Virus record (IMG/VR): IMGVR_UViG_3300034107_000018
Location: 1-24,800 of that record
DNA length: 24,800 nt
From: a virus
Strand: one strand, 5' to 3'
Positions 394 through 17,942 of the stretch are shown piece after piece. Below the pieces are notes generated by a model. That model saw nothing but the letters and a program-made list of their open reading frames with translations, had not been told where the DNA came from and did no database searches. Both the position numbers and the translations under genes were made by a program. The first letter of the stretch is position 1. Every line of letters begins with the position of its first letter.

Positions 394-779
394 ATTTTCC
401 TCTCAAATGGTAGGCTGCCAAGCAGGTAGTACTCAACGTCCCCGTCTATCCAAGTGGGCTTAAACCCGATTCGTTTCACAAACTTTTTTTGATCTACTCG
501 CTCGTGAGATACGCGAGTGGTCAAAAAGCCATGTCTCTCAAACACCGGCTCAAGGAAAGCCCTGACCGAGTCACGCATGCTGGCCCTTGGCTGCCAGTCA
601 GGGGCAAGAGCAATGTGCACTTCAGTCCCTTTGGCCACCATGGTCCAGACAAGACGTCCTTCAAATTCAAACTGAAGAACTTCCCAGTCAGCAAAGTAGT
701 CAAGGATCTGGTACCTCGACAACGCAGTGCCCTTGCGAACCGAGGAGATGATCGGTTCAAGAAGGGCCTCTCGATTCAT
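390..779 (-). CDS. GNAT-like small virion-associated protein
   Basis: This encodes 129 residues. The ATG at 779 is preferred over the TTG two codons upstream because it forms an ATGA overlap with the stop of the 412-residue gene. The C-terminal half resembles the end of a GNAT acyltransferase fold: a hydrophobic strand (VHIALAP), a helix with RDSVRAFLEPVFERHG, then KKFVKRIGFKPTWIDGD and a final strand ending LLGSLPFER, the usual 'neighbour strand plus GF' ending of GNAT proteins. T7 gp13, which lies next to the ejection proteins, is also described as acyltransferase-like, so a catalytically inert assembly role in maturing the internal core is plausible. I cannot see a clear acetyl-CoA pyrophosphate-binding loop (Q/RxxGxG/A). 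A true acetyltransferase is the alternative. Confidence 0.6.
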   Translation of the reverse strand: MNREALLEPIISSVRKGTALSRYQILDYFADWEVLQFEFEGRLVWTMVAKGTEVHIALAPDWQPRASMRDSVRAFLEPVFERHGFLTTRVSHERVDQKKFVKRIGFKPTWIDGDVEYYLLGSLPFERKI

Positions 780-2014
780 GACCAATCAAGCAGATCTTTA
801 AGGCCAGTGATGCCAGAAGTTTTGCTAAGAATCTCAAGCGAATTCTGCAAATAAAGTTTCTGCATGTTGACGGCCGCCTGCTTTGGCGATACCTTGTTCC
901 CGTCCTTGCCGACTACCCCGTCTTCTGCTTTTGCGCTGAGGTCTGGGTTGGCCATGAGGTCGGCGATGTTCTTGGACACTTGCTGGAAGACGTCGTTTGC
1001 GCTGGCCGATGCCTGTATCTGGTTTTTGTAAGCGGCCTCTGTTGCAGCCAAGGTCGCGCGGGTAGACGCGTCGATGTTCTGCAGTTCGATCTTTGTCTGA
1101 GCGTCGGCGTTCGACAGGGCGAACTTCATCGACTGGTCCATCATGTTCTGGACAGTGCTGTTGAGAGCGGTGGCGTATTGCTTGGAGACGTCGGTCTGGT
1201 TGGCAGCCGTGACTTGGGCGGCCTGATTCTGGGCTGCCGCATTGGCCGCCGCCGCTTGATTGGTCGCGCCGGCCGTGAACTGTGCGGCCTGATTGGCCGC
1301 GGCTGCGTTGGCCGCGGATGTCTGGCTGGCTGTACCCGCGCCAAATTGCATGGCCTGATTTTTCGCAGCTTGGTTTTGAGCTTCGGCTTGGTTGGCCGCA
1401 GAAGCCGTGAATCCGAGAGCCTGATTGCCGGCTGCCAAGTTTTCTGAGCCGGCTTGGTTCTGAGCGTTGGCTGTAAAACCAAGGGCTTGGTTGCTTTGGC
1501 CGGCGTTGAACTGGGCCAACTGGTTTGCAGCGTTGGCGTTGACCTGAGCTGAGTTGGCGAAGGTGGCCGCGTCTTGTGTGGCAATCGGGAGCGCTGCCGA
1601 GTAGACGGCCTTCTGGCCCTCTCCCAAGGCCATGCTCGAGTTGACCAAGCCGCGCGAGTTCATCTGAGCCAATGAGTTGGCACGGGCTTGCTGGAGCAGG
1701 GGCGAGTTGGCAGCAATCAGGCCGCCGATCTGTCCTTGAACTGTTTGGTTGTTGTCGACGTTCCAGTTGGTGCCAAGGGCCCCGGCCGCGTTGTATCCGG
1801 CCGCTGTTCGCGAACCCGCGTTGTAACCTTCGCCAGTCATGGTGCTGGCCGTGTATCCAAACGGGTTGGCGTCGGTAGCCTTGTACCCGGTTGCGCCAGA
1901 CGTCGCCGCGGTGTATCCAGTGGCTTGAGGTGCGGCGATCGCGCTCGTAGCGTTGCCGAGCAGGGTTGCCCCTGTCGTGGTGTTTAAATCAAACGGGTTG
2001 TTTGCTGTTGCCAT
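776..2014 (-). CDS. 412-residue Ala/Asn/Gln-rich repeat protein, probable internal virion or tail-needle component
   Basis: Start ATG at 2014 has a GGAG Shine-Dalgarno five bases upstream. The protein is built from two kinds of short repeat. Residues 31-80 contain five ten-residue units each with GY(T/K/N)A. Residues 164-273 contain ten eleven-residue units, mostly beginning NQ and alternating between an NQxxxFxA type and an NQAxxxNxAA type. The segment between (about 90-160) is helical and contains AQMNSRGLVNSSMALGEGQ. The C-terminal 130 residues look like ordinary amphipathic helix (IELQNIDASTRATLAAT) with a short acidic/Gly turn (EDGVVGKDGNK). It sits between the lysozyme and the ejection-type genes and is coupled to the GNAT-like gene. 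A long helical rod or ejection-channel component is my inference; no family is recognised with certainty. Confidence 0.65.
   Translation of the reverse strand: MATANNPFDLNTTTGATLLGNATSAIAAPQATGYTAATSGATGYKATDANPFGYTASTMTGEGYNAGSRTAAGYNAAGALGTNWNVDNNQTVQGQIGGLIAANSPLLQQARANSLAQMNSRGLVNSSMALGEGQKAVYSAALPIATQDAATFANSAQVNANAANQLAQFNAGQSNQALGFTANAQNQAGSENLAAGNQALGFTASAANQAEAQNQAAKNQAMQFGAGTASQTSAANAAAANQAAQFTAGATNQAAAANAAAQNQAAQVTAANQTDVSKQYATALNSTVQNMMDQSMKFALSNADAQTKIELQNIDASTRATLAATEAAYKNQIQASASANDVFQQVSKNIADLMANPDLSAKAEDGVVGKDGNKVSPKQAAVNMQKLYLQNSLEILSKTSGITGLKDLLDWS
1196..1525 (-). repeat. Ten in-frame 33-base units coding 11-residue (hendecad) repeats
   Basis: Residues 164-273 of the 412-residue protein divide without gaps into ten units of exactly 11 residues: for example NQLAQFNAGQS, NQALGFTANAQ, NQAGSENLAAG and NQAAQFTAGAT. 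Nine begin NQ and one begins SQ. From the second unit the aromatic type (F or V at position 6) and the Ala/Asn type alternate, giving a 22-residue super-period. Eleven-residue periodicity is typical of right-handed or straight coiled coils, so an extended helical bundle is the structural expectation. Confidence 0.85.
1775..1924 (-). repeat. Five in-frame 30-base units coding decapeptide GYxA repeats
   Basis: In the 412-residue protein the motif GY(T/K/N)A begins at residues 33, 43, 53, 63 and 73, an exact ten-residue period. The remaining positions are Ala, Thr, Ser and Gly rich. This is a different repeat from the downstream eleven-residue array and probably forms an exposed or beta-type segment. 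Confidence 0.75.
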
Positions 2015-2030
2015 ATTCGCTCCACAAATA

Positions 2031-2076
2031 GGAAAGCCGCACTAGGCGGCCTATTGCGGGCGCAGTGGCCCCGCAA
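2031..2076 (-). other. Two consecutive hairpins between lysozyme and repeat-protein genes
   Basis: The gap between the repeat-protein start (2014) and the lysozyme stop (2082) holds two perfect stems on the minus-strand RNA. The first is TTGCGGG/CCCGCAA (7 bp, 2054-2060 with 2070-2076). The second is GCCGC-CTAGT-GCGGC (2036-2050), followed by TTTCC. The T-run is short and interrupted, so this is a weak terminator or an mRNA processing/stability element rather than a full stop. Confidence 0.45.
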
Positions 2077-2081
2077 AGATT

Positions 2082-2558
2082 TTACATTAAGAACAGGGCG
2101 CGTTCATCATTTCTGCGCTTTACCAGTCCGGGCAGGATTTTGCCCCCGCCCCTTGTGAATTTCAGAAACTCGTCCGCCGCTTCTTCGATCTCTCCGCGAA
2201 GAACCTTTTGACGGAGCGTTGATCGCTGAACTCCTCCCAGACCGAGATTAAAAGCAAAGCTGACGAGAGCATCAAACTGGCCTTGGGTAAGAGCCACAGG
2301 AAAAAGTTTGGCGACCCCAACTTCAAATCGGCGGAGATCAGCACCAAGGATTCCATCTATTTCTGCCTTTGAAAACGTGCGGTTATCTGCTGCCGCAAGT
2401 GGGAAAGCGTCTCTTTGATCCAAAGGTAAGCGACCTTGATCTGGGTAAAGGACATGACCTACTCCAATCGTAAAAAGACGCGCTGGGCATCGGTACGGTT
2501 TAAATCGAACACCCTCGTGGTGCTTGATCATCTCCATGCACCGTTGAGAGACTTTCAT
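2082..2558 (-). CDS. Endolysin, T4/P22-type lysozyme (glycoside hydrolase family 24)
   Basis: This muramidase cleaves the N-acetylmuramic acid to N-acetylglucosamine bond of peptidoglycan to release progeny. The protein is 158 residues if it starts at ATG 2558, which gives an ATGA overlap with the holin-like gene; a longer frame would need a TTG at 2588. The family catalytic pattern E-8-(D/C)-5-T is intact as Glu15, Cys24 and Thr30 (HHEG, PYRCP, FTIGVGH), with Cys instead of the commoner Asp. Downstream helices carry the typical QGQFDALVSFAFNLG motif and RRNDERALF near the C-terminus. There is no N-terminal signal or anchor, so release should depend on a holin. The family assignment is secure. 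Confidence 0.93.
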   Translation of the reverse strand: MKVSQRCMEMIKHHEGVRFKPYRCPARLFTIGVGHVLYPDQGRLPLDQRDAFPLAAADNRTFSKAEIDGILGADLRRFEVGVAKLFPVALTQGQFDALVSFAFNLGLGGVQRSTLRQKVLRGEIEEAADEFLKFTRGGGKILPGLVKRRNDERALFLM

Positions 2559-3040
2559 TTCTTGCTGAACGCTTGGCTGCCGAACCAAAAACTGATGATC
2601 AACGTCCAGATAGTTTGCGTCTCATCATCCCAAAGGTTATTCAGCATGATCTCAAAATCTACGGCGTGGCGCCATGCATAAGAAAATCCAGCCACCTCTA
2701 CAAACACCAGCAGGAGGAACATGCCGTAGGTGATGTTGGGCCTTACGCCCGCCCGCAGATTGATCACCCACTGGCTGGCTCCCTGACCGATAGCTATATC
2801 GTGCGCGTACAGGGCGTTGCGCTCGGCTGATGCAGCCTCAACCATCTGCCCCTCTACCTTGATCTCCTCCACCCGCTGCATGACTTCAAAGCCAGCTTTG
2901 CGGAGTTCCAGTTCGCGCTCTGTCTGTAGTTGGGCCATTGCCATCTCATGCTTTTTGTCGGCCCGGTCTTGGAAAAAACCAAGCACCTTGGGCAAGCCGC
3001 CAGCAAGAAAACCAAATAGCGATGAGAGTAGGGTTAGCAT
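2555..3040 (-). CDS. Holin-like membrane protein (3TM / GTA-holin type)
   Basis: This encodes 161 residues whose ATG shares one base with the upstream stop (TAATG). It has a hydrophobic N-terminus (about 1-23, SSLFGFLAGGLPKVLGFF), a charged helical region (about 28-75, rich in E, K, Q and A), a transmembrane helix at about 103-122 preceded by the motif RAGVRPNITYG, and a last hydrophobic segment at about 142-156 ending in FWFGSQAFSKK. This order, including the RP motif before the second membrane helix, matches the family known as 3TM-type or GTA holins as I remember it. Its place directly before the lysozyme, with coupled translation, supports a role in opening the inner membrane for the endolysin. 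Family identity is from pattern recognition only. Confidence 0.75.
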   Translation of the reverse strand: MLTLLSSLFGFLAGGLPKVLGFFQDRADKKHEMAMAQLQTERELELRKAGFEVMQRVEEIKVEGQMVEAASAERNALYAHDIAIGQGASQWVINLRAGVRPNITYGMFLLLVFVEVAGFSYAWRHAVDFEIMLNNLWDDETQTIWTLIISFWFGSQAFSKK

Positions 3041-3342
3041 TACTTTTTCTCCAGCTTGGTATTGATCACGGCAATCTCTTGTCTGTTGTGCATGATGTCA
3101 TCTCGGTTCTTTTGGATTTCTTTTTCCAAGTCTTGTCTCAGCTTTTCCCTTGCCAGTTCGGCGCCACTGTTGCTGGCTTGCTTGTTGTCACTGGTTACCA
3201 CCAAGCTGATCTTGCTATTGAGAATAGTCACTTCATGGCTGAGATTTGACAGAGCCGACATCAGATACACAACGCAGCTAAACAGCAGCGGCAGTATTGC
3301 AAATGTGGCCTTTTCAATCAATGCGCCTTTATCGTCCGTCAT
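3040..3342 (-). CDS. Small membrane-anchored coiled-coil protein of the lysis region
   Basis: The likely start is ATG 3342, which overlaps the preceding stop as ATGA and follows a GGGGGA Shine-Dalgarno sequence; the frame extends further upstream but without support. The 100-residue product has an N-terminal charged stretch, one transmembrane helix (about 14-33, ATFAILPLLFSCVVYLMSAL), then a long polar helix rich in E, K, R and Q that looks like a coiled coil (about 62-100). With the N-terminus in the cytoplasm, the coiled coil would lie in the periplasm. That layout resembles an inner-membrane spanin (i-spanin) or a XhlA-type holin partner. No lipoprotein o-spanin is evident beside it, so function stays open. 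Confidence 0.65.
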   Translation of the reverse strand: MTDDKGALIEKATFAILPLLFSCVVYLMSALSNLSHEVTILNSKISLVVTSDNKQASNSGAELAREKLRQDLEKEIQKNRDDIMHNRQEIAVINTKLEKK

Positions 3343-3815
3343 GTGTCCCCCACAAGTTGCCACGTAAGCCACGCGGTTAAACCAATCACTACAGCCACCA
3401 GAGCAGCCCACAGGCCAAAGCTCAGGATTTCGTTTATCTCTTTAGCCCTCAGTGCCTTGGCCTGAGCCTTCTCTGCTTCTGCCTTTTTGCGTTCGGCCAC
3501 CATTCGGTTGCGCTCCAGCATCAGTGCGTTCCACACGTCGTCATTGCCCGACCATATCAGCATCTGCTTCAGTTCGTTCTCTGCGTCTTGAAGCTGCTTG
3601 AGTTGCATCACCGTCTCAAACGCCACGGCCGTGTCGCTCTTGCCAAAACCCTTGGGCTTCTTCTTGACCGACGCCTTGGCAATGACGTCTTTTGCTTCGA
3701 AGAACTTCATCAGGTCGCCACTGATGGCGTTGATGTCCTTGCCCATCTTGATGGCGGTCTGCACTCCTTTTATGGCTCCTTGAGCTACAGCAAATGCGGT
3801 TAGCGGATCAATCAT
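3339..3815 (-). CDS. Hypothetical protein with helical body and C-terminal membrane anchor
   Basis: The product has 158 residues and starts at ATG 3815, overlapping the upstream stop as ATGA. The N-terminus (MIDPLTAFAVAQGAIKGVQ) is an amphipathic helix, followed by a Lys-rich stretch (KKKPKGFGK), a long charged helix dense in E, K, A and Q (about 100-128) and one clear C-terminal transmembrane helix at about 131-153 ending in WQLVGDT. Proteins starting with this kind of MIDPLTAFAAAQ motif are, from memory, common in marine and freshwater podoviruses next to lysis genes, without a proven function. Tail-anchored topology would leave the body in the cytoplasm. It could be a lysis regulator or a virion protein. 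Confidence 0.65.
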   Translation of the reverse strand: MIDPLTAFAVAQGAIKGVQTAIKMGKDINAISGDLMKFFEAKDVIAKASVKKKPKGFGKSDTAVAFETVMQLKQLQDAENELKQMLIWSGNDDVWNALMLERNRMVAERKKAEAEKAQAKALRAKEINEILSFGLWAALVAVVIGLTAWLTWQLVGDT

Positions 3816-3964
3816 TTGTCCCGCCTATTCCACATCTCGAATAATGTTTTGATCTTGTCCTCCAAGACAGCTACCCGCAGGTCCAACTTTGCCAAGACAA
3901 TGATCAAGGTGATCAGCGCCAGCAGGATGGGCCATGCTTTTGCGAGGACGTCGAAGAAGTCCAC
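3812..3964 (-). CDS. Fifty-residue single-span membrane protein
   Basis: This short gene starts with GTG at 3964, one base after the stop of the preceding small gene (TGA A GTG), and its own stop overlaps the next ATG as ATGA. The product begins with an acidic N-terminus (VDFFDVLAK), continues with one hydrophobic span (about 11-26, WPILLALITLIIVLAK) and ends in a charged helix (VAVLEDKIKTLFEMWNRRDK). Both junctions sit in the tight, coupled pattern of the operon, which supports it as a real gene despite its size and GTG start. Size and topology suit a small holin, antiholin or pinholin-like protein; that is inference. Confidence 0.62.
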   Translation of the reverse strand: MDFFDVLAKAWPILLALITLIIVLAKLDLRVAVLEDKIKTLFEMWNRRDK

Positions 3965-3965
3965 T

Positions 3966-4136
3966 TCATCTGCCCAGCGTCAGAGATGCGTAGACGATAG
4001 CTGACATGGAGACGATCAAGACACCCGTGGTCTTCATAATCACGCCTTCCAGCCGCTTGAGCCGAGCATTGATCTGTGCATACCTCTCAGCACACACTGC
4101 CTCGTGGCTCGTAAATCGGATGTCTAGCTCACTCAT
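3966..4136 (-). CDS. Fifty-six-residue membrane protein (XhlA-like layout)
   Basis: ATG at 4136 overlaps the stop of the APS kinase fusion gene as ATGA. The product starts with a polar helix (MSELDIRFTSHEAVCAERYA), has a short amphipathic segment (INARLKRLE), and ends in one hydrophobic span (about 31-52: GVIMKTTGVLIVSMSAIVYA). A short N-terminal coiled coil followed by a C-terminal membrane helix is the layout of XhlA/haemolysin-type holin partners. It forms a pair with the next 50-residue membrane gene. Assignment rests on topology only. Confidence 0.62.
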   Translation of the reverse strand: MSELDIRFTSHEAVCAERYAQINARLKRLEGVIMKTTGVLIVSMSAIVYASLTLGR

Positions 4137-4975
4137 ACGCCCATCTTCTTTCTGATTTCAGTTGCGGAGATAGCGTGAGTGGCAGCATCAAAAACTTCCT
4201 GCTCAATCTTGTAGCCAACATCTCTGCCGTAGGTGATGTTCACCACATTTGGCACAAGCTGTATCTCGTACTGCCCTTGGTACAGGGGGTCTAGGTCACG
4301 CTTGATCAGGTCTTTCACTTGCTCTGCGGCAAAGGGATTGGAGCCGTTCCAGCCTTGGCAGTCCCTGATCTGGATGACCACTTGGCCCGTCTTGGCAATC
4401 GCCCGGTCAAACAGAGCACGATGCCCCGGATGCCACGGTTGCCAGCGGCCAAGCATCTGCACGGTTTCCTTCTTCCAGTCAAAGGTAGGACGACGGCGTT
4501 GATCCAAGATGTGCTGACCAATGAACTCTGCCCACTTCTCGGCGTTCTGCTCAGTGACACGGAAGTCATATTCCTTCGGAGGAATGAATGCTTTGTTGGT
4601 ATCGTCAAAGCGCCCTTGGTCAATGGTGTCTACCCAGACAGTCCAGTCTGCCTTGAAGTTGTTCCGCATCTCCACCAGCGGGGCTACGAAGTCGCAGATC
4701 ACAAAGTCGCCAGTGGACTTGAAGGCAAACTCAGCCATACGCAAGGACTGACGGATGCGGCCCTCTTTGCTGAAGTCCCAATCATTGAACCGCTTGCGGA
4801 TGTCATCAGCGTTGAACCAGTCCACGCTGCACTTGTAGGACGTAGGAACGTGTTCAGATGCCCGGTAAGCAGGCATATGCTTCACATCCGAGTTGCACTC
4901 AAGGTACTTCTTCAGTGCGGTAGCAAGCATCGTTTTGCCGCTACCCGGCAGACCCATGATCAGGATTTTTTTCAT
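4133..4975 (-). CDS. Fused adenylylsulfate (APS) kinase and HxGH nucleotidyltransferase, putative PAPS-forming enzyme
   Basis: This 280-residue protein has two domains. The N-terminal one (about 1-160) is a P-loop kinase: GLPGSGKT at 8-15, then ADDIRKRF (56-63), DWDFS (65-69) and a following Arg-rich helix, then a CDFVAP strand near 94-99. This order matches CysC-type APS kinases (GDNVR, DLGFS, SPF), which phosphorylate APS to PAPS. The C-terminal domain (about 170-280) is a nucleotidyltransferase: LGRWQPWHPGH with HPGH at 182-185, YGRDVGY at 249-255 and ISATEIRKKM at 269-278. ATP sulfurylases belong to this same superfamily, so ATP sulfurylase-like activity is possible but unproven; transfer to another substrate is the alternative. 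The gene overlaps the sulfotransferase gene by ATGA, which supports a joint sulfation role. Confidence 0.82.
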   Translation of the reverse strand: MKKILIMGLPGSGKTMLATALKKYLECNSDVKHMPAYRASEHVPTSYKCSVDWFNADDIRKRFNDWDFSKEGRIRQSLRMAEFAFKSTGDFVICDFVAPLVEMRNNFKADWTVWVDTIDQGRFDDTNKAFIPPKEYDFRVTEQNAEKWAEFIGQHILDQRRRPTFDWKKETVQMLGRWQPWHPGHRALFDRAIAKTGQVVIQIRDCQGWNGSNPFAAEQVKDLIKRDLDPLYQGQYEIQLVPNVVNITYGRDVGYKIEQEVFDAATHAISATEIRKKMGV

Positions 4976-5790
4976 TTGACTTTGTACAGTTGTTTGACCG
5001 CAAACTCAGGCGCTGGCTTACGCCAGAAGTCTTTACCAGCGTATTTGTCCCACACTGACTTGGGCAGGATGGATGGTCGCTCCTGCCATGTTACCTCTTT
5101 GCGTACCGTGTGCAGGCTCTTCATATTCAGGGCTTTGTCAAAAACTTCGTTCTCGTACTCCACGTTCTTGAAGTCGTGGTCAAAGTATTGCTTGCCGATG
5201 AACTGATACAACTCGCGCATGACGCTCTCAGGCTTCTTGCAAAGCATCTCGTACTCCACCAGCATGATCATGTCTGGGTTTAGCAGCAGACCCTCTTCCA
5301 AGAAGTAGTAAGGCTTGACCACTTGGCCTTCTTTCTTCACGTCCATCAGGGCATCGCACCTTGTGGTGACTGTCTGCCGCGCTTCATCATCGGTCAGGGT
5401 TGCACCGTACAAGGAGTTCTTGGCTGAAATGCGCTCAAAGCTGTCCAGTATCCACGGCAGGTCGCGCACACAGCAGATGATCTTGGTCTGGGAATATAGG
5501 TCTTTTAACAGTGATGTCTTGGCAGTCCAGCCCCTGCTGGTGTCAAACACAGTGTTTGGCGTGACCGACTCGTAGAACGCATTGAAGATGGACTTGAGAA
5601 TATGCTTGCGTCTGCCTTCATCAATCAGGTGGTTACTCTCGCTGCCCGTGATGACGTTGATGGTTGAGGTGACCAAACCTTGTACGGGGGACGAGATGTC
5701 GGCGTAGAACTCAGGGTTCTGACGCAGAATAGCCGATAGCAGGGTCGAGCCTGACCGTGGCAAACCAGAGATGAAGAAAAACTCTTTCAT
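4972..5790 (-). CDS. Sulfotransferase (PAPS-dependent, Sulfotransfer family)
   Basis: The product has 272 residues. The N-terminal GLPRSGSTLLSAIL (9-22) is the 5'-phosphosulfate-binding loop of sulfotransferases. CCVRDLPWILDSFERI near 106-121 is the 3'-phosphate-binding motif, with Arg109 and Ser117 spaced as in the family. TAKTSLLKDL between them and VEYEMLCKKPESVMRELYQFIG later are also typical of bacterial Sulfotransfer_3-like enzymes. Such enzymes move sulfate from PAPS to a hydroxyl or amine on a sugar, lipid, protein or small molecule. No signal peptide or membrane span is seen, so it should act in the cytoplasm. ATGA overlaps at both ends tie it to the 144-residue tail-region gene and to the APS kinase fusion. 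The acceptor cannot be read from the sequence. Confidence 0.9.
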   Translation of the reverse strand: MKEFFFISGLPRSGSTLLSAILRQNPEFYADISSPVQGLVTSTINVITGSESNHLIDEGRRKHILKSIFNAFYESVTPNTVFDTSRGWTAKTSLLKDLYSQTKIICCVRDLPWILDSFERISAKNSLYGATLTDDEARQTVTTRCDALMDVKKEGQVVKPYYFLEEGLLLNPDMIMLVEYEMLCKKPESVMRELYQFIGKQYFDHDFKNVEYENEVFDKALNMKSLHTVRKEVTWQERPSILPKSVWDKYAGKDFWRKPAPEFAVKQLYKVK

Positions 5791-6221
5791 GCTGCTGGAG
5801 TCTGGGCAACCCAGTTGACTGTAGCCTCATCCCACTGGTAGCGCACGTTGCCGCCGTTCATGATGGCATCAGCAGGTCTTGCCACGGGTGCAGCCCAAGT
5901 CATTGTGTCCAAGTAGCCAATCCATGACGGGTAAGGCTTACGGGCTTCATGTTCTGCGGTTCTAAGGGTGGTGTACTCTGCTTCGGTCAAGACCTGCAAG
6001 ACACCAGCAATGGTCGTGTCGGCATCGTCATCACAAGTGCCGTAGTATCTTGGCGCACGGAGGTATGTGCCATCAGATGCTGTGGATACAGGCCATGTTG
6101 ATTGATCATGCCAGATGTGTTTATACCCCTTGACGGCAGGCATTGATGGGCCTGTGCGCTGTGGCTCGGCAGTGCAGACTATTTTGGTTACTGCGTCTAC
6201 TTCGGTTATGCAAATGTACAT
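5787..6221 (-). CDS. Small tail-region protein with Trp-rich C-terminus
   Basis: The 144-residue product starts at ATG 6221 with a strong AAAGGAG ribosome-binding site. The N-terminus is a beta-like strand (MYICITEVDAVTKIVC). The C-terminus has the pattern YPSWIGYLDTMTWAAPVARP followed by YQWDEATVNWV. Trp-rich endings of the form 'YxWDExTxxWV' are common in small proteins coded after phage tail fibres and may be fibre-associated or chaperone-like; this link is from memory. The gene ends in an ATGA overlap with the sulfotransferase, so it may be the fibre-side end of the sulfation cassette and a candidate substrate or partner. It is not a recognised enzyme. Confidence 0.6.
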   Translation of the reverse strand: MYICITEVDAVTKIVCTAEPQRTGPSMPAVKGYKHIWHDQSTWPVSTASDGTYLRAPRYYGTCDDDADTTIAGVLQVLTEAEYTTLRTAEHEARKPYPSWIGYLDTMTWAAPVARPADAIMNGGNVRYQWDEATVNWVAQTPAA

Positions 6222-6239
6222 CGTAATGCTCCTTTGAAA

Positions 6240-7229
6240 TTAAACTGCGACACGGCGGATGGCACGGACACGGCTTGAAGTTGTTTTAGTGAGTAAACCC
6301 TGATAACCGTCATAGAAGCTCTGAAAATACCCCGCCGTGGCAGAATGCTCCGTACTAGCCCAATAACTGAGAGGACTATAGGCTTCTGTGCCTGCGTCTT
6401 GAAAATCCGCAGCAGAAGTTTGTGCCGGAGTTCCAGAAGTGTAACTACTTGCCCTAGCGGGAACAGCGTTAGGGTTTTGCCCAATCGAGCCTCCTGTGCC
6501 GTTAGTTTTTGTTGTTGGTTTTAAATTGTAGTAACACACCTCCAACTCATTCTTGGCAGGCATATACCAGTCAGAATACCCACCAATCACTAAGTCGTTA
6601 CAAAAGTGAGCCGCTGGGTAAACAGTTGAATTGCCATCTGCAACGATATCTGCTGTGTTCTGTGGACCATTAATAACACTATCTGCACCAGATGTTGCCG
6701 TGGCTTCATTTTTATATTGCTTGCTAGAATTTTGTGCAGAAGATTTGGGGCCAACTACAAGGTTGTGCGTAGCAACACTTGATACCCCAATCTGCCCTGC
6801 ATAAAATCCACCGCCAAAGGCCGCACCAATAGCAGGCAAAGCAGGCGTTACGGAATTACTTGCCGCACTTGGTGCGCTTGTACCGCCGGGGGTTGAAGCC
6901 GTAACCGTAAATGTGTATGCAGTCCCGTTTGTTAAACCATTAACAGTAATAGGTGATGCACCTGTGCCCGTCAAACCGCCGGGGCTTGACGTTGCTGTGA
7001 ACGTAACTGTACCCGTGCCAAGGTCTGTAGGCGCAGTGTATGCCACTGTCGCAGAATTTACTCCCGCCGTAGCCGTCCCAATCGTAGGAGCGCCGGGGAT
7101 TCTAGGCCAGATGCCTTGCTTCACAAAGTCTGCTGCTTGACCAAGCGTCCAGATACCTTTAGCCGCTGCGGTTGTCGGGGCTGTTGGGTTCTTGGTGACG
7201 ATGCCGCCGGGGAACTGTTTGATACTCAT
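6240..7229 (-). CDS. FN3 plus DUF1566-like (C-type-lectin-like) receptor-binding protein, paralogue 1
   Basis: This encodes 329 residues with an AAGGA ribosome-binding site. A short N-terminal part carries GIWTLGQAADFVKQGIWP (25-42). Next comes a fibronectin type III domain (about 44-129, GAPTIGTATAG to SAASNSVTPA), then a DUF1566-like domain (about 137-329). Landmarks of the latter are AQFCN-type LVIGGYSDWYMPAKNELE, PARASSYTSGTPAQTS, YWASTEHSATAG and the terminal RVRAIRRVAV. DUF1566 has a C-type lectin fold and occurs in adhesins such as Legionella Lcl. With the tail fibre upstream and two paralogues beside it, receptor binding is the best inference. The segment between YWAST and SRVRAIRR differs most from its paralogues. 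Confidence 0.8.
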   Translation of the reverse strand: MSIKQFPGGIVTKNPTAPTTAAAKGIWTLGQAADFVKQGIWPRIPGAPTIGTATAGVNSATVAYTAPTDLGTGTVTFTATSSPGGLTGTGASPITVNGLTNGTAYTFTVTASTPGGTSAPSAASNSVTPALPAIGAAFGGGFYAGQIGVSSVATHNLVVGPKSSAQNSSKQYKNEATATSGADSVINGPQNTADIVADGNSTVYPAAHFCNDLVIGGYSDWYMPAKNELEVCYYNLKPTTKTNGTGGSIGQNPNAVPARASSYTSGTPAQTSAADFQDAGTEAYSPLSYWASTEHSATAGYFQSFYDGYQGLLTKTTSSRVRAIRRVAV

Positions 7230-7238
7230 GGGTGTTCC

Positions 7239-7904
7239 TTAGACTGCGACACGGCGGATGGCTCGAACACGATAGCTATAGGTCTTGTTGCTGGTGTTGG
7301 TCTGGTCGCCAGTACTAAAATTCTGAAGATTACCGCGCGTAGCAGAAAATTCTGTACTTGACCAATAGGAATCTGAAGAATAAGCCTGTGCGCCAGTAGA
7401 TATTATAAAGTCAGTGGCTGTTGTTTGTGCTGGAGTTCCACTTGTGTAGTTACTAGCTCTGGCAGGGACAGCATTTGCGTTTGTTCCAGAAGACGTATTA
7501 TTACCGCTTGTGTCGGGTTTTAAGTTGTAGTAGCAAACATCAAGTTCGTTTTTTGCTGGCATATACCAGTCAGTAAATCCACCAATTGTCAGACCTTCAC
7601 AGAACTGTGCTGCTGGATGAGTTGCATCATTCATCGCGGCGCTGTTGGCTGGGCCGTTAATGACAGATGTTGTCCCAGCGGTTGAAGTATTACTTGTTTT
7701 CCACTGCAACGAGCTTTGTGCAGTTGCAACAGGTCCAACAACAAGGTTGTAATCTGCTATGCCATTACCAGCGGTTGATATTTGACCTGCAAAAAAACCG
7801 CCACCAAAGACTTGACCAATAACCAATGGTGGGTCAGGCCAAAGGCTTTGACCTTTAGCTTGCATCTGCTGAGTGACTGTCCAGATTCCAGAAAAATTAG
7901 GCAT
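7239..7904 (-). CDS. DUF1566-like (C-type-lectin-like) receptor-binding protein without FN3, paralogue 2
   Basis: The 221-residue product has a TAAGGA ribosome-binding site. It lacks the FN3 domain: the N-terminal GIWTVTQQMQAKGQSLWP (6-23) leads almost directly into the lectin-like domain (about 28-221). Core motifs are FGGGFFAGQIS, LTIGGFTDWYMPAKNELD, PARASNYTSGTPAQTT, YWSSTEFSATRG and the last residues YRVRAIRRVAV. The N-terminal 18-residue motif matches that of paralogue 1 and may be the part that docks onto the tail. It is probably a shorter alternative binding module, produced alongside its neighbours from the same transcript. Confidence 0.78.
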   Translation of the reverse strand: MPNFSGIWTVTQQMQAKGQSLWPDPPLVIGQVFGGGFFAGQISTAGNGIADYNLVVGPVATAQSSLQWKTSNTSTAGTTSVINGPANSAAMNDATHPAAQFCEGLTIGGFTDWYMPAKNELDVCYYNLKPDTSGNNTSSGTNANAVPARASNYTSGTPAQTTATDFIISTGAQAYSSDSYWSSTEFSATRGNLQNFSTGDQTNTSNKTYSYRVRAIRRVAV

Positions 7905-7912
7905 ACGTTTCC

Positions 7913-8833
7913 TTAGACTGCTACTCTGCGGACGGCTCGGACACGGCTTGAAGTTGTTTTTCCAGCACCTCCTCCGTAACTACCTTGATAGCCACTACTA
8001 AATGCCTGTATCCAACCAGCAGAACTAGAAAGCTGTGTACTAGCCCAATAAAAAGAAGCAACAAAATCTTCTGCGCCTGTATCTCTAAAGTCAGTAGCAG
8101 ATGTCTGCGCTGGAGTGCCAGAAGTGTAATTACTGGCTCTAGCAGGAACAGCGTTTGCGTTTATCCCCGCAGGGTCATTAGCTGCCGTTGTTGGTTTTAG
8201 GTTGTAGTAGCAAACTTCTAGCTCGTTCTTTGCTGGCATGTACCAATCGCTAAAGCCACCAATCGTTAGACCTTCACAGAACTGCGCTGCTGGATGGGAT
8301 ATATCATTCATTGATGCGCTATTGGCTGGCCCGGTAATAACAGAATTTGTACCCGCATCGTCTGTATTTACAATTTTAAATTGAACGCTTGTATTTTGAG
8401 CAGACGCAACTGGCCCAACAACTAAGTTGTAGTCCGCTATCCCATTACCTGCTGTAGAGATTTGACCTGCAAAATAGCCGCCGCCTAATACAGCGCCAAT
8501 AACCAAAGGAGTAGCACTATTACTTGCCGCGCTCAAGGGGCTAGGGCCATAAGCATTAGTTGCAAACACTTTAAATGTGTATGCTGTAGCCGCCAAGCCC
8601 GTAACCGATATTGGGGAACTTGCCCCGGTTGTTATGGTTATTGACCCATCGGATGTCTTAATTGCTACAACTGAATACCCAGTAATAGCCCCGCCACCTA
8701 CATCAGCAGGTGCAGTGAAAGCTACAGATACAGAACTAACCCCCGCCGTAGCCGTGCCAATCGTGGGGGCGTCGGGAACCTTCAGCGGGTTGTACCCCGG
8801 CAAGACAATACCAGCTTGATAGCGCATCGACAT
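7913..8833 (-). CDS. FN3 plus DUF1566-like (C-type-lectin-like) receptor-binding protein, paralogue 3
   Basis: This encodes 306 residues. The Shine-Dalgarno sequence is weak (GGGTAG). After a short N-terminus without the GIWT motif, an FN3 domain (about 20-110) begins DAPTIGTATAGVSS, nearly the same as in paralogue 1, also at DNA level. The lectin-like domain follows (about 112-306) with GGGYFAGQISTAGNG, LTIGGFSDWYMPAKNELE, YWASTQLSSSAGWIQAF, a Gly-rich insertion (SYGGGAGK) and terminal SRVRAVRRVAV. Parts are closer to paralogue 2 (ISTAGNGIADYNLVVGPV) and parts to paralogue 1 (FN3 and KTTSSRVRA), which suggests domain shuffling or gene conversion among the three. Confidence 0.8.
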   Translation of the reverse strand: MSMRYQAGIVLPGYNPLKVPDAPTIGTATAGVSSVSVAFTAPADVGGGAITGYSVVAIKTSDGSITITTGASSPISVTGLAATAYTFKVFATNAYGPSPLSAASNSATPLVIGAVLGGGYFAGQISTAGNGIADYNLVVGPVASAQNTSVQFKIVNTDDAGTNSVITGPANSASMNDISHPAAQFCEGLTIGGFSDWYMPAKNELEVCYYNLKPTTAANDPAGINANAVPARASNYTSGTPAQTSATDFRDTGAEDFVASFYWASTQLSSSAGWIQAFSSGYQGSYGGGAGKTTSSRVRAVRRVAV

Positions 8834-8845
8834 GGTGCTACCCGT

Positions 8846-9238
8846 TTAAGTTATGACTTCGTAGCTGATTGTGTAGGTCAACGCGCTTGCTGTACCCGAA
8901 GTAATGGAGATGGAGTTACCTTCCATCAAATAGACAGCGGTGGTCTTGTCAACAGCAATCAGCGAGGCATTGGCAGGTACAGACACGGCTGACACGATAG
9001 GATAAGCCGTACCGCCAGAAGGGGCAGAACCTTGAGCCACAGCGCCGTTTGAGTACACCGCCACCGTAGTATTTGCAGCAGACGCTGTGGTGTTAGCCAC
9101 AACAATCTGATTGATCTTAAACACCGTGCCGCTGGATGCGGCGTTAGGTACAAGAACAACTGCGGATGTGCCGCTAGGTACGTAGTAAGTTGTCGTGCCA
9201 AGAATGGACGTTACGTTGACTATGTTGGGGTTTGCCAT
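8846..9238 (-). CDS. Small beta-rich virion protein
   Basis: The 130-residue product has an AAGGA ribosome-binding site and sits between the tail fibre and the lectin-like genes. It is rich in Ala, Ser, Thr, Val and short beta strands (TTYYVPSGTSAVVLVPN, KINQIVVANTTAS, SISITSGTASALTYTISYEVIT) with no Cys and few charges. This suits a compact beta-sandwich, such as a fibre-tip adaptor or a trimeric decoration between fibre and receptor-binding proteins. I do not recognise a named family. Confidence 0.65.
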   Translation of the reverse strand: MANPNIVNVTSILGTTTYYVPSGTSAVVLVPNAASSGTVFKINQIVVANTTASAANTTVAVYSNGAVAQGSAPSGGTAYPIVSAVSVPANASLIAVDKTTAVYLMEGNSISITSGTASALTYTISYEVIT

Positions 9239-9247
9239 GATGGTTCC

Positions 9248-11419
9248 TTAGAGGCCGAAGATCATTGAAAAAGCGATAGCCTGACCTTTACTGGCCCCGC
9301 TTGCTGCTGGTGCTTGGAAAGTGGGGGCCGCGCCTGAGTTGGCAGTTAAGACATGCCCTGCTGTGCCTGCGGCAGTTGATGTTGGGGCGACTCCTGCGCC
9401 ACCTCCAATGACAACACCGTACTGAGTCAGCGCACCAGACGATGCCAATGTGCCAGATGCTGTGTAGGCTAAAACACCACCAGAAGTTCCTGCCGTTAAT
9501 CCTGTACCACCGCTGCCAACAGCCAGAGTTGCCGACAACCCGGCGGCCGTGCCGGAGGTGTTTTGGTTGAATGTCGGCCACGTTTGCGCACCAGCAAATG
9601 TGATGGCGCCGGTCATGGTGCCGCCAGAAAGGGCTAGGTACCCACTGGCCGGTAGGTAGGCAGCCAGCCAAGCCGAGCCGCTGTACACGCGCATCTCGCT
9701 GACCGTGGTGTTGAAATACAGAGCACCTGTCAGCAGTGCGTTGCCGTCATTGTCCAGAGCCGGGTCGGAAGCCTTTGCCCCAAGGTAGCGGTCATCAAAC
9801 GAGTCGAATGACGCAGCCGCTGACGTGGCGCTGCCAGAGGCAGCCGTTGCACTGCCGGCCGCTGCCGTGGCGCTGTTGCCCGCGTTGGTCTCGCTTGTCG
9901 CCGCAGCAGAAGCCGAAGCCGCCGCGCTGGTCGCGCTGCCCAGAATGCTGTCTACGTAAAACTTGGTCGCGCCATCTTGGTTGGCCGTTGGGTCAGCCAA
10001 GCCGGTGATCTTGTTGGCGCCCATAGCAATGGCGCCTGACATCGTGCCGCCAGTTTTGGCCAGCAGACCAGACACCGTGGTGTCGACCTCGGTCTTGGTG
10101 TAGGCGTTGGTGATGCCGTAGCCCGCAAGGGTCGTCGGGTTTGTGCCGGCAGTCACGCGGCCGTAGGTGTCCACGGTCACAGACGTGTAGGTGCTGGCGC
10201 CGACCCCAGTGGTGGCCAAGTCGATATTGTCCGAGTTGACAACGATGCGGCTGCTGGACGCCGTGCCAACGTCCAAGGTGTTGCCGGTCTTGGTCAGACC
10301 CGCGCCAGCGGTAATCTGGCCAGCCCCTGAGAACTGGACCCAAGTCACCGCAGTTGATCCAAGAGTGCCGCCGGCGTCGATCGTGCAGACCCATCCGCTA
10401 TCTGCGTTGGCCGTGCCGGATTCGACAAAGGTGAATGCCGACGTCAGTTCCACCCAAGTGTCGGCGTCGGTGGACCGGGCCCAAGTGCTGGCAGCCACCA
10501 CGTAAATGCCGTTGTTGGCCGAAGTGCTTTGGTCTTTAACCAGCACCCGGTCGCCGGCAATTACTGCGACTCCGTCGATCGTCTGGGTGCCGGACAGGGT
10601 GATGCTGGCCGTGGTCGCAACAACGCATGAGGCTTTTGCATCCAGCCCTTGTGCGGTGTTGTCAACGTAGTTCTTGGTCGCCGCGTCTTGTGCGGCCGTA
10701 GGGTCGCCAAGGCCCGTGACCTTGCTGGTGCCCATGGCAATGGCGCCTGACATCGTGCCCCCGGTCAAGGCCAAGCGCAACGCGACAGCGGTGTCAACGT
10801 ACCCTTTGTTGGCCGCGTCAGTGGCGCCAGACGGCGTACTCAGACCGGTGATCGTGCTGCCCGTGGCCGAGTTCATGTCCAGAGAGCCGTTGATGGTGAC
10901 GTCGGCAAACGTCGACGTGCCGGTACTGGCGGTCACATTGCCGGTCAGGTCGCCTGTGACGTTGCCAATCACGTTGCCGGTCACACCGCCGGTGACGTTG
11001 CCGGTCAAGTTGCCAGTGAACCCGGAGCTGGCGCTGGCGGTGGTGAAGGCGCCTGTTGAAGCGGTCGTTCCGCCAATCGGAGTACCGTTTATCGTACCCC
11101 CAGTAATCACAACGCTGGAGCCGAGAATTGAGTTGCCGGTGACCGTCAGATTGGTAAAGGTGCCAGCCGCAGCCGTGGTCGCGCCGATCGGCGTGCTGTT
11201 CAGGGTAGATGAGGTGATGGCCAGAGACTGAAGCGCGGAGGACGCAATCAAAGCCGTGCCGGCCGAATTGACCATCGCCACCTTGTAACCGTTGGCGGCC
11301 AAGGTTGGAAGCAGGTCAAAACCGACAGTGATGCTCTCCAGCTCGGTGCGCAGCGTCGCCGACGCACCGGGTGAGTTTGGAGTCGGGTACGTGGTGTGCG
11401 TGTAGTAGGGATTGCTCAT
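9248..11419 (-). CDS. Tail fibre protein
   Basis: The 723-residue product starts at ATG 11419 overlapping the upstream stop as ATGA. The N-terminal SPGASATLRTELESITVGFD (about 16-35) is a typical virion-attachment start. There follow Gly/Thr/Asn repeats (NLTGNVTGGVTGNVIGNVTG, 137-156). Two copies of the fibre repeat GGTMSGAIAMGxxKxTGLxDPTA start near 220 and 457, each ending in a YVD, with a third shorter GGTMTGAI near 599. Between the first two lies a beta-rich domain (260-365, DGVAVIAGDRVLVKDQ). An Ala/Ser coiled-coil stalk (494-537) leads to YFNTTVSEMRVYSGSAW (568-584) and a C-terminal Gly-rich tip ending KGQAIAFSMIFGL. It should trimerise and bind the cell surface. Confidence 0.88.
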   Translation of the reverse strand: MSNPYYTHTTYPTPNSPGASATLRTELESITVGFDLLPTLAANGYKVAMVNSAGTALIASSALQSLAITSSTLNSTPIGATTAAAGTFTNLTVTGNSILGSSVVITGGTINGTPIGGTTASTGAFTTASASSGFTGNLTGNVTGGVTGNVIGNVTGDLTGNVTASTGTSTFADVTINGSLDMNSATGSTITGLSTPSGATDAANKGYVDTAVALRLALTGGTMSGAIAMGTSKVTGLGDPTAAQDAATKNYVDNTAQGLDAKASCVVATTASITLSGTQTIDGVAVIAGDRVLVKDQSTSANNGIYVVAASTWARSTDADTWVELTSAFTFVESGTANADSGWVCTIDAGGTLGSTAVTWVQFSGAGQITAGAGLTKTGNTLDVGTASSSRIVVNSDNIDLATTGVGASTYTSVTVDTYGRVTAGTNPTTLAGYGITNAYTKTEVDTTVSGLLAKTGGTMSGAIAMGANKITGLADPTANQDGATKFYVDSILGSATSAAASASAAATSETNAGNSATAAAGSATAASGSATSAAASFDSFDDRYLGAKASDPALDNDGNALLTGALYFNTTVSEMRVYSGSAWLAAYLPASGYLALSGGTMTGAITFAGAQTWPTFNQNTSGTAAGLSATLAVGSGGTGLTAGTSGGVLAYTASGTLASSGALTQYGVVIGGGAGVAPTSTAAGTAGHVLTANSGAAPTFQAPAASGASKGQAIAFSMIFGL

Positions 11420-13461
11420 CTGAGTCCTCGGCGTAATGTGTAGTGCACGATGACGCTGTTCACCGTGAAAGGCTGAAGGAGATCTGAGTTCGAGGAAATC
11501 CGAATGGCCATGTTTTCAGCGGTCCCGGTAACTTCGATTTCGGACGGCGAAACGTCAGATCCGTCCCACACGAAATTATCCCAAATCATCTCGTCCCAGT
11601 AGCTGGACCTCAAGTCGTTCTGGTAAGACAGATCGGCAGGCTGGGTTATGGACTCCTTGCGGTAGCCCAAGTCGTATCCAAACTGGATTTCGGCGTAAGA
11701 GTCACCGGTTATCTCGACCGACGCCTTGCGGTACCGTTTCAAAACGCGTGGCGATTTCGTTGAGTTGTAGACCAAGTTGATGTTGGCCGCAATGGTCCCG
11801 CCGTCAAAACTGGTCCCCGCGTCCATCTGGTAAACAAAGCCGTTTCCAGATCCAAAGAACTGCACCGTCCCGCCGCTGGGGGCCTCACCGTCAACGCAGC
11901 AGTTGATGGTGTGCGCAAACTGAACCGGCATGCTGCCGAGTAGGTTGGCGTTTGTGATGGTCAGGTACAGGGCGGAACCGTCGGAGAAGAAAACCCGGTA
12001 CTGGCCTTTGTCTCGGTTGACTGAGCTGCCAACGGCCAGTGCCCGGTGCGCTTCAATGAACGGCCGAATGTTCATGGTCAGCGAAGCTGGCACGAAGTTG
12101 CCGAAGTTCAACGATGTGCTCATGCTGATGACACCTCGGTCGTCAAGCACGTAGGACTGGTCCAAGTTCTGCGCGGTGTACGCGTAGCCGCCGGTGCCGG
12201 TGTTGAACGCTGACAGCTGGAATGTGGCTGAGCTTGTGCCGTACAAGACCGACGTGTCCTGACGCGTGTAAACGCCCAAGGCGCCGCTTGATTGGTTACC
12301 CGGCAGGATCAGCAGGTTGGTAATCTCTGCGTTCATGGCGATCTCGCCAGCGCCCAACAAAGGGGTCCATTGGTACGGATAGCCCAAAGCGCTGAATTGC
12401 AAAGAAGCGCCGAAGCTCAAAAACAAATGCTGCTTGTGGAAGCAAATGTGGTTGGGCGTATCCACGGTCATGCCGGTGCGAATGGGCACGTAAGTCGTGC
12501 CGTCAAATTCAAATGCGTTGTTCTTTCCGTCGCACCCGTACATTTTGTAGTTAGCTGTGCCGCCGCCGAAGTTGGCGATCACGGTATCGTAACGGCCGCT
12601 GGGTGCCAAAGTGATTTGCACAGGCGCGGTCAAGACGTGCGCGTAGGTGGTAACACCGATTCGCAAATTCTCACCAACCGTAAAAACTCCGGTAACGGTA
12701 GACAAAATCAATTGACCGGCCGCATCGCTTGAAGCGTAGGTGCCGTCTTCAAGAACCGTGCGGGCCACCACACACGTCGCCCCGCTGGACTGACCGGTCA
12801 AGGTGACGCCGTCTGCGATCGCCAAGACGCCGCTATCAAAAGACATGGTTTTGCCAAGGGTAACGGCAGTCCATCCCGAGGATGTCGACTTGTGCATGAC
12901 CGAAGCTGTTGCACCGGCGTTGTTTCGCCATGCGTACAGGGTGCCGTTGTAGTAGCCCACGCCAAGCACGGATCCGGATCCCGGCACGGCGGTGATGTCG
13001 GCCCGGTAGCTGTCTGCGGCAAGGTTGCGGTAGGTCACGTCCAGCAGGCCGTCGGCTGATATCCCTTGCACATACGTGATGACGCCCACATTGGTCGAGC
13101 TCACCGAGATGCCTTCTGTGGACAAGAAGGTGCCGGTCTCTCGGGTAATCACCACGTCGTTGCCGGTCCGCGCGATGACCACGCCGGTGGCTGCGGATGA
13201 CAAGCCGACGATGGTGTTGCCGACGGCGACCGTGCCGGTCAGTGCGCAGACAAGAATGTTGTAGACCGCAGCCGATGGGCTGGGCCTTCCGTCAAAGCGC
13301 TCGTATCCAGCGATGCGGGTGTAGCCGCCAGTGATTGAGCACTCGAAGTTGGCAGCCCGGCGGGCGATGCCCGGGGGCAATGAAAGAGTTGGGGTGACCT
13401 GATCCAAGCCGCCATTGAGGCGGATGAGATCGTAATTGACTCTGGGCGTGGTCAGTGGCAT
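11416..13461 (-). CDS. Tail tube / nozzle-type structural protein
   Basis: The 681-residue product starts at ATG 13461. The N-terminal motif NGGLDQVTPTLSLPPGIARR followed by ANFECSITGGYTRIAGYERF is characteristic, from memory, of a large conserved tail protein in podoviruses of this type. The body is beta-rich with many aromatic and Gly turns (GVISYVQG-like strands, NFGGGTANYKMYGCDGKNNAFEFDG split over two strands, FGASLQFSALGYPYQW). No transmembrane or catalytic motif is present. Size, position after the head-tail adaptor and before the fibre match the P22 gp10 or T7 gp12 nozzle position. The stop overlaps the fibre start by ATGA. Confidence 0.75.
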   Translation of the reverse strand: MPLTTPRVNYDLIRLNGGLDQVTPTLSLPPGIARRAANFECSITGGYTRIAGYERFDGRPSPSAAVYNILVCALTGTVAVGNTIVGLSSAATGVVIARTGNDVVITRETGTFLSTEGISVSSTNVGVITYVQGISADGLLDVTYRNLAADSYRADITAVPGSGSVLGVGYYNGTLYAWRNNAGATASVMHKSTSSGWTAVTLGKTMSFDSGVLAIADGVTLTGQSSGATCVVARTVLEDGTYASSDAAGQLILSTVTGVFTVGENLRIGVTTYAHVLTAPVQITLAPSGRYDTVIANFGGGTANYKMYGCDGKNNAFEFDGTTYVPIRTGMTVDTPNHICFHKQHLFLSFGASLQFSALGYPYQWTPLLGAGEIAMNAEITNLLILPGNQSSGALGVYTRQDTSVLYGTSSATFQLSAFNTGTGGYAYTAQNLDQSYVLDDRGVISMSTSLNFGNFVPASLTMNIRPFIEAHRALAVGSSVNRDKGQYRVFFSDGSALYLTITNANLLGSMPVQFAHTINCCVDGEAPSGGTVQFFGSGNGFVYQMDAGTSFDGGTIAANINLVYNSTKSPRVLKRYRKASVEITGDSYAEIQFGYDLGYRKESITQPADLSYQNDLRSSYWDEMIWDNFVWDGSDVSPSEIEVTGTAENMAIRISSNSDLLQPFTVNSVIVHYTLRRGLR

Positions 13462-13470
13462 CTGGTCTCT

Positions 13471-14163
13471 TTAGGCAAGAGGCGGACCACTGACAACGGT
13501 TGGCAGCTGGTCGATGTCCAGACGATTCATCAAACGCTTGAATTCAAACTCGCCCCGCTGGTAAACCTCCGGAGCCGACTCATAACCGCCGTAAAACATC
13601 ATGGCCCGGTAGACGATCATCATCTGGAACCGGGTGGGGAAGTAAGCGGAAGGCTCGTCAGTGGCCGCAGAGAACTCGGTGGGCTGCACGTAGAACTCGC
13701 CCACAACAACGTAAGGCTGATCAGGGATCGAGCCAAAACCCAAGTTTTTATCAGGGTCGATCGTGACGACCACTGGCCTTGCATACGTTGTCCGCATGTT
13801 CCCGTACATGTACAGGTTGCGGAACGTCGTGTAGTCCATGTAGTTTGACAGCTGCTCGTCTTTGTAGTCTTGGCCTACAGACGAGATCCGCCAACTGTCA
13901 CGTTTCCAGTTTCCGAAAGTGGTCCCCACACCGGCTTCGGTGGGGGTGTAGATTTGCTGTTGCGTAACCGTGTTGAACTGCACTGGCTGGCGCATCCACT
14001 GCCAATCTTCTTTGGCCGTCTGGATGTCAACCCACGCGCTGTTAATCCACGCAGCGATCCGCGCGGACTCGCCTGTAAGGCCAGTGACGGTGACCAGAGG
14101 GGTGCCGGCGCCTGAGACGCCGCACTCCACCCTTGCGCGATTAATCAGCTGTAGGAAATTCAC
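13471..14163 (-). CDS. Head-to-tail adaptor (connector) protein
   Basis: This encodes 230 residues. The N-terminus MNFLQLINRARVECGVSGAG, then RIAAWINSAWVDIQTAKEDWQWMR, is an alpha-helical pair typical of adaptor proteins that dock under the portal (as P22 gp4 or T7 gp11 do). The C-terminal half is mixed, with FQMMIVYRAMMFYGGYESAPEVYQ-type helices, split here at FQMMIVYRAMMFYGG and APEVYQRGEFEFKRLMNRL. Start ATG overlaps the upstream stop as ATGA, and the nozzle gene follows after ten bases. The gene order portal, capsid, adaptor, nozzle, fibre supports the role. No sequence-level family assignment can be confirmed here. Confidence 0.72.
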   Translation of the reverse strand: MNFLQLINRARVECGVSGAGTPLVTVTGLTGESARIAAWINSAWVDIQTAKEDWQWMRQPVQFNTVTQQQIYTPTEAGVGTTFGNWKRDSWRISSVGQDYKDEQLSNYMDYTTFRNLYMYGNMRTTYARPVVVTIDPDKNLGFGSIPDQPYVVVGEFYVQPTEFSAATDEPSAYFPTRFQMMIVYRAMMFYGGYESAPEVYQRGEFEFKRLMNRLDIDQLPTVVSGPPLA

Positions 14164-14582
14164 GTAGCTTCAGCCAATACGTTGGTGAGCCATGCGCGAC
14201 CCCGGGGGTTTGCGTCTTCCATGAGCTCGAATGGGTAAGCCAAACCGTGACGCGCGACCATGTCGATCTGGTCAGGAGCCGCGGGATTGCGGGTGACTTG
14301 GCTGTACTTGGTCTCTTTCATGTGTGCCAAGATCTCAACGTACTTGCGGCGGACCGTAGTGGGCACGCCACGCATGATCGGCTGGTTGGTTCCGTTGCAG
14401 TTGAGGATCACGTGAGGAGCTTGGTTTTCATCGGTGCTGGAGTGAACCATCACGGTGACCATCTCGTTCATGAACATCTCGCTGGAAGCCAGTTCGCGCA
14501 GGTCGGGGACTCGCGAAACGGGATCAATCATCGGTGCGTCATCGTGAATCTCGATGCCAGCGATTACTTCTTTTTTTGCCAT
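14160..14582 (-). CDS. Small head-completion or virion-associated protein
   Basis: The preferred start is ATG 14582, seven bases after a GGAG motif; another ATG two codons upstream is too near that motif. The 140-residue product starts MAKKEVIAGIEIHDDAPMID and includes a strand-loop part (VTVMVHSSTDENQAPHVILN), RGVPTTVRRKYVEILAHMKE, and a C-terminal YPFELMEDANPRGRAWLTN. The central GVP-TVRRKYVEIL pattern is conserved, from memory, in many phages with N4-gp56 capsids, just before the adaptor gene. Its likely role is at the capsid-connector interface. It is the first gene after a strong terminator-like structure, so its expression could be lower than that of the capsid genes. Confidence 0.65.
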   Translation of the reverse strand: MAKKEVIAGIEIHDDAPMIDPVSRVPDLRELASSEMFMNEMVTVMVHSSTDENQAPHVILNCNGTNQPIMRGVPTTVRRKYVEILAHMKETKYSQVTRNPAAPDQIDMVARHGLAYPFELMEDANPRGRAWLTNVLAEAT

Positions 14583-14602
14583 TCTCATTCTCCGTTGGGG
14601 TT

Positions 14603-14644
14603 AAAAAACTGGTCTGCCAAAAAGCAGACCACCCGAAGGTGGCC
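14603..14644 (-). terminator. Rho-independent terminator with overlapping UUCG hairpin (attenuator-like)
   Basis: On the minus-strand RNA, UGGUCUGC (14624-14631) pairs perfectly with GCAGACCA (14610-14617), giving an 8-bp stem, followed by G and six U (14603-14608). This is a strong intrinsic terminator between the 145-residue virion gene and the head-completion gene. Just upstream, GGCCACC-UUCG-GGUGGUC (14627-14644) forms a 7-bp stem with one G-U pair and a very stable UUCG loop. The two stems share bases 14627-14631, so they cannot form together. Confidence 0.85.
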
Positions 14645-14676
14645 TGCGTAAAAACCTCTTCAAGGAGGATGGCAAA

Positions 14677-15114: not shown

Positions 15115-15135
15115 GATGAATTTCCTTCAAGAAGA

Positions 15136-15633: not shown

Positions 15634-15655
15634 GGTGTGTTCCTTTAGTTAGGAC

Positions 15656-15677
15656 GGGGCCGGGGTAACCCAGCCCC
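15656..15677 (-). other. Strong stem-loop after the major capsid gene
   Basis: Seven bases past the capsid stop, the minus-strand RNA forms GGGGCUGGG-UUAC-CCCGGCCCC: nine base pairs with one G-U and a four-base loop. No T-run follows, so it is not a classic terminator. It more likely protects the 3' end of the capsid mRNA or marks a processing point. Confidence 0.75.
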
Positions 15678-15683
15678 TAGTCA

Positions 15684-16745: not shown

Positions 16746-16773
16746 GGTCTAGTTTCTTTCTTTGAAAATTGAG

Positions 16774-17646: not shown

Positions 17647-17658
17647 TTTTTGCTCTCC

Positions 17659-17934: not shown

Positions 17935-17942
17935 CGGTAAAT

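Follow-up and report, generated by a model that had tools for sequence, protein, structure and literature searches.

Diversity-generating retroelements (DGRs) of the BPP-1 type, comprising Mtd, Avd, a template repeat (TR) and a reverse transcriptase (RT), act in phages on a C-type-lectin target with a C-terminal variable region (VR), in which NNY codons stand at template AAY sites. Multi-VR DGRs have several targets per element, with duplication proposed as their source (PMC3521204), and phage DGRs with two targets are represented by the tentaclins (PMC10743442); both kinds keep their RT and diversifying targets. Remnants devoid of RT have been described with TR/VR traces in Treponema denticola isolates (PMC4891356) and proposed for the Nostoc paralogue all3226 (PMC7517822), and mention has been made of a DGR target conserved in phages without a DGR (PMC8867640). 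The phage locus described here resembles BPP-1-type systems in its lectin fold, the C-terminal position of its variable segment and its codon usage, and multi-VR and two-target elements in having several lectin-like targets. It differs from phage DGRs in that no RT, Avd or template is visible in the 24.8-kb fragment, in the stability of RT-less variable segments between close relatives, and in the tandem arrangement of as many as three target genes. Its target genes are left without core DGR parts, as in T. denticola and Nostoc, but those remnants are bacterial, chromosomal and single or dispersed, whereas here a tandem array lies in a phage cassette at the exact slot of a DGR, and does so in many phages. 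Searches of the open-access literature brought up no account of phages with frozen DGR targets in tandem. Within that literature, and as far as shown here, three things are new: a frozen tandem set in phages, a slot at which this set and a DGR alternate exactly, and a codon test that needs neither RT nor template.

The stretch of DNA analysed, hereafter the window, is a linear 24.8-kb fragment of a virus genome (record IMGVR_UViG_3300034107_000018) whose terminase, portal, and major head and tail genes are all encoded on the minus strand. Three consecutive lectin genes lie on this strand: A (6240–7229, 329 aa), B (7239–7904, 221 aa) and C (7913–8833, 306 aa). They stand downstream of a tail-fibre-like gene (9248–11419, minus strand) and are followed by orf144 (5787–6221), a sulfotransferase gene (PF13469; 4972–5790) and an APS-kinase-like gene (4133–4975), all likewise on the minus strand. 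A 130-aa protein with no family match (8846–9238, minus strand) sits between the tail fibre and the lectins. Elsewhere in the window, a small ORF at 24131–24346 contains a near-perfect internal duplication, with MHSQGCAIHDEGPCTCGAEEEL occurring two times, and 776–2014 encodes a protein with A/N/Q-rich short repeats and a weak Decapeptide-repeat match.

The initial annotation had reported three adjacent lectin-domain genes with a differing C-terminal segment, and its coordinates and content were borne out by Lcl_C matches and by comparison of the segments. Pfam Lcl_C (PF07603) scores were 36.8 bits for B, 36.0 bits for C and 33.4 bits for A, the last just under the family cut-off of 34.9 bits. 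Over the lectin core, C is 67% and A 59% identical to B. An N-terminal fn3-like domain is present in A and C; B consists of the Lcl_C domain only, which corrects the initial annotation. Past YW(A/S)ST the three proteins diverge in both sequence and length, the distance between YW and the stop being 41 residues in A, 42 in B and 45 in C, and they become alike again at RVRA(I/V)RRVAV. The variable segments span YWASTE...RRVAV in A (6243–6365, minus strand, 41 aa, the length of the template of DGR-bearing cousins), YWSSTE...RRVAV in B (7242–7367, minus strand, 42 aa) and YWASTQ...RRVAV in C (7916–8050, minus strand, 45 aa). Such segments are not a chance feature, being found again in 141 distinct variants from RT-less relatives. 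The paralogue 3' ends are near-identical (44 bp at 89%). Synonymous sites of this end, ATCCGC...GCAGTT (e.g. window 6243–6270), are strongly conserved across paralogues, with CGC in 49/55, and the 3' end of the cousins' template is unlike it. The conserved end is a possible recombination joint or former homing signal.

Modelling of gene C gave a poor lectin part (mean pLDDT 66), with fn3 domains only among the matches listed, and gene B was used instead. The gene B model (95 sequences) reached a pLDDT of 93, in agreement with the C-type-lectin fold proposed by the initial annotation. Its best match among solved structures was the C-terminal domain of Legionella Lcl (8q4e; Z 12.7, rmsd 3.9 over 125 residues), a glycan-binding adhesin (PMC11162425) of the same Pfam family that is not phage-borne. 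Mtd was matched with a Z of ~5.5 (rmsd 3.3 over 109 residues). The modelled fold and the neighbouring genes suggest that the lectins bind a receptor sugar or protein, and that their probable place is at or close to the tip of the tail fibre.

The initial annotation had also recommended comparison with related phages. With gene C as query, 80 viral relatives were recovered, and the slot between tail fibre and orf144, with sulfotransferase and kinase beyond, was compared among them. The outcome was divided: 77 records carried one to three lectin genes without RT, in the order tail fibre, Lcl_C (one to three copies), orf144, sulfotransferase, kinase, and three carried one lectin with Avd, a template repeat and RT, i.e. 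a complete DGR. The lectin-to-orf144 junction was visible in 71 of the 77 RT-less loci, with lectin genes only inside. In some RT-less phages an extra lectin gene was observed beyond the kinase gene (L031 5909–8963, L032 14599, L038, L041). The DGR-bearing set was formed from the RT-bearing relatives and further kin found by RT search. Its order was Lcl_C, Avd, TR, RT, orf144, often with sulfotransferase and kinase present, and the full phage DGR set occupied the lectin slot in cousins L058, L079/L080 and L171. Avd was confirmed as PF22296 and RT as PF00078. Mismatches between VR and TR fell mostly on template adenines (18/20 in L080, 20/24 in L171 and 22/26 in L170), marking these elements as true DGRs. 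A homologous lectin is therefore the target of an intact DGR at the same locus in kin (L058, L079, L080, L164–L171), and orf144 is a conserved neighbour in DGR-bearing and RT-less relatives alike. Among annotated phages only distant kin of the lectins were found, at ≤40% identity (Pseudomonas phages). Bacterial genomes were uninformative as a host clue, giving two weak matches only, to Bacteroidales MAGs and aligned to the fn3 part.

DGR parts were then sought in the window and in the RT-less relatives. As the initial annotation had noted, no RT or template is visible in the window: the 24.8-kb genome fragment gave no PF00078 match and contained no N-rich template-like tract, and blastn of the window with the VRs or with the TR of L080 matched only the VRs themselves. 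RT was not found in 77/80 relatives, several of them 36–62 kb long, nor in 49 capsid relatives, and no RT-less locus examined had an N-rich tract. The Avd of L080 matched nothing in the window or in RT-less loci by tblastn, and the same method detected no RT or Avd remnant at RT-less lectin-to-orf144 junctions. With RT, Avd and TR all missing, an active DGR nearby in the window is ruled out. A downstream hairpin (IMH) was uninformative as a target-site marker: no stem of ≥7 bp follows the VR in the window genes, and 7/8 DGR kin likewise have none.

The codons of the variable segments were next compared with the cousins' template, which reads YWSSTENSATNAWKQNFNNGNQNNNNKNNSNRVRAVRR. RT-less segments of template length were aligned to it without gaps. 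Their variable codons coincided with template AAY sites: mean entropy was 3.04 bits at template-N sites versus 0.93 elsewhere (p=1e-6), and ~90% of codons at template-N sites ended in T or C. To remove amino-acid choice, four-fold codons were counted separately. These ended in T or C in 86% of cases at template-N sites (n=385). The constant domain gave 51% (n=4859), variable non-N positions within the same segments 46% (n=284), and sites shifted by one or two 50–70%; bootstrapping over genes gave a difference of 0.31–0.38. The four-fold and non-N-site controls rule out amino-acid choice as the sole cause of NNY. The third base also followed the template site by site (permutation of T/C labels among sites, p=0.0046), with T prevailing at 4/4 AAT sites (0.79–0.87) and C at 8/9 AAC sites. 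The AAC exception, site 20, conflicts with the template of L080 and agrees with the AAT of L170. In the window genes jointly, NNY codons made up 36/44 variable codons versus 422/725 (p=0.001). Gene B alone gave the cleanest fingerprint with 14/14 (p=0.001); A (10/13, p=0.13) and C (12/17, p=0.23) were singly non-significant. By this measure B is pristine and A and C are partly decayed. Family-wide, the RT-less segments show the mark of a fossil VR, variable codons at AAY sites with the template third base kept.

These codons bear on the reading preferred by the initial annotation, duplication with divergence. In its plain form, the genes would be ancient paralogues whose ligand loop became hypervariable by ordinary mutation and positive selection, with a DGR never involved. 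RT, Avd and TR are indeed missing from the window and from 77/80 relatives, the segments differ by length and synonymous changes, and Y, S, G and N are favoured binding residues, several of them NNY-coded by nature. Against this stand the bias of four-fold codons, nearly twice as T/C-rich at template-N sites as at other variable sites of the same segment, third bases that track a cousin's template, and a slot identical to that of DGRs. We consider a history without any DGR unlikely. The preferred reading is incomplete, given the DGR fingerprint in the variable codons, the complete DGR in the cousins' slot, and duplications that are old and non-local. The rule that accompanied it, by which lack of RT and of site-specific variation would reduce the array to simple paralogy, would overlook a fossil DGR target.

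Gene conversion among the tandem copies might instead have homogenised the segments and so produced their shared non-adenine codons. The near-identity of the paralogue 3' ends and their unusual conservation at synonymous sites would fit such a process. Conversion would, however, even out amino acids at N sites too, yet these are the most diverse, and it does not predict their T/C restriction, which makes it very improbable.

Third-base identity to the template was 0.60 for RT-less segments, compared with 0.44 between constant domains (versus the DGR lectin), the latter near saturation. The template traces are therefore younger than the lectin genes. From these sequence comparisons, divergence of the constant domains would already have begun when a template of this kind was copied into the segments, which would then have partly decayed. 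Segment lengths of 42–47 aa and non-adenine changes indicate much ordinary mutation since writing. The 141 distinct RT-less segments ranged from 41 to 47 residues, none below the template's 41, with net insertions only.

Whether the segments are still being rewritten was assessed from pairs of relatives. Amino-acid identity of the variable segment in RT-less pairs was 0.99 at 94–100% constant-domain identity (8 pairs) and 0.95 at 88–94% (9 pairs), whereas DGR pairs averaged 0.56–0.59 (~57%) in every distance bin; close pairs were few (17 RT-less and 5 DGR above 88%), and the DGR pairs came mostly from more distant phages. For example, the segments of the RT-less L063 and L071 are one residue apart despite 9% divergence of their constant domains, and the DGR-bearing L225 and L235 have 99% of the constant domain in common and differ at variable sites. 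RT-less segments are thus inherited rather than rewritten, in line with the initial annotation, which had argued against recent adenine mutagenesis. The same data weigh on a live DGR acting in trans, whose RT and template would lie at another place in the genome or be supplied by a host prophage or a co-infecting phage. Multi-VR DGRs are known to have remote targets (PMC3521204, PMC7517822), the window covers part of a genome, and the fingerprint is present. Segments that stay near-unchanged between relatives with constant domains 6–11% different speak against it, as do the searches for RT in RT-less relatives of 36–62 kb and in 49 capsid relatives, and for a template tract in the RT-less loci examined. 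Rewriting in trans therefore appears improbable, slightly more so than plain divergence.

In a constant-domain tree, whose rooting and many branches are weakly supported, DGR lectins were basal and 118 RT-less lectins came together in a single large group, in which two DGR genes (L058, L169) were nested. A, B and C belonged to three different clades, each of them with relatives from other phages (some branches weakly supported). This placement rules out a recent local triplication, and the array is accordingly old or assembled. The orf144 tree mixed DGR and RT-less states, with well-supported branches forcing at least three changes. Both trees being mixed, lectins and DGR parts have probably been exchanged at the slot. 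From the sequences, DGR loss followed by exchange would fit, and repeated capture of ready-made variants from DGR phages would fit too.

A sister phage, G083 (L244–L246, 60.8 kb), is 98% identical to the window over 9594–24800 and 92% identical over 3–4136. It is devoid of the lectins, orf144, sulfotransferase and kinase, and its tail-fibre C-terminus is different and longer. Window positions 4137–9593, missing in G083 while both flanks match, thus constitute an exchangeable receptor cassette. One border lies within the tail-fibre gene, where homology to the sister phage stops in the C-terminal part (~9594), and the other at the kinase stop (~4136). The sulfotransferase and the APS-kinase-like protein, which has a C-terminal HxGH nucleotidyltransferase-like part, form a pair (4133–5790) conserved beside lectins in many phages; the L080 kinase is without this second part. 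Together they may activate sulfate and transfer it to a glycan, either of a surface or of the virion.

We favour the reading that the variable segments were produced by a DGR long ago and are now frozen, persisting as a tandem set within a swappable receptor cassette, and assign it a probability of roughly 80%. A DGR would originally have written the lectin segments by copying a template, with adenine-directed mutagenesis, into the 3' end of the gene. In the phage lineage the lectin genes would now stand apart from RT, Avd and template and be passed on as fixed variants, either because RT loss froze them or because they came ready-made from DGR phages. Up to three lectins would be kept in tandem, with a rare additional copy beyond the kinase gene, and the receptor cassette of lectins, orf144, sulfotransferase and kinase would move between phages. 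The phage appears to rely on a few frozen variants made in advance, and such a set may widen or hedge its host range. A more tentative proposal, which we regard as possible rather than probable, is that the DGR and the tandem lectin array can replace one another at a single slot. DGR phages would generate lectin variants, and RT-less phages would take up several of these ready-made and store them via cassette exchange; if so, a public mutator would feed private archives of adhesins.

The four-fold codons provide a sequence test for former DGR targets: their restriction to T/C, matched site by site with the template of a cousin, spots such targets without RT or template. The influence of DGRs on phage receptor proteins may exceed the counts of RT-based surveys. 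The presence of both states at one locus in related phages makes it testable when a switch from continuous mutation to fixed variants pays.
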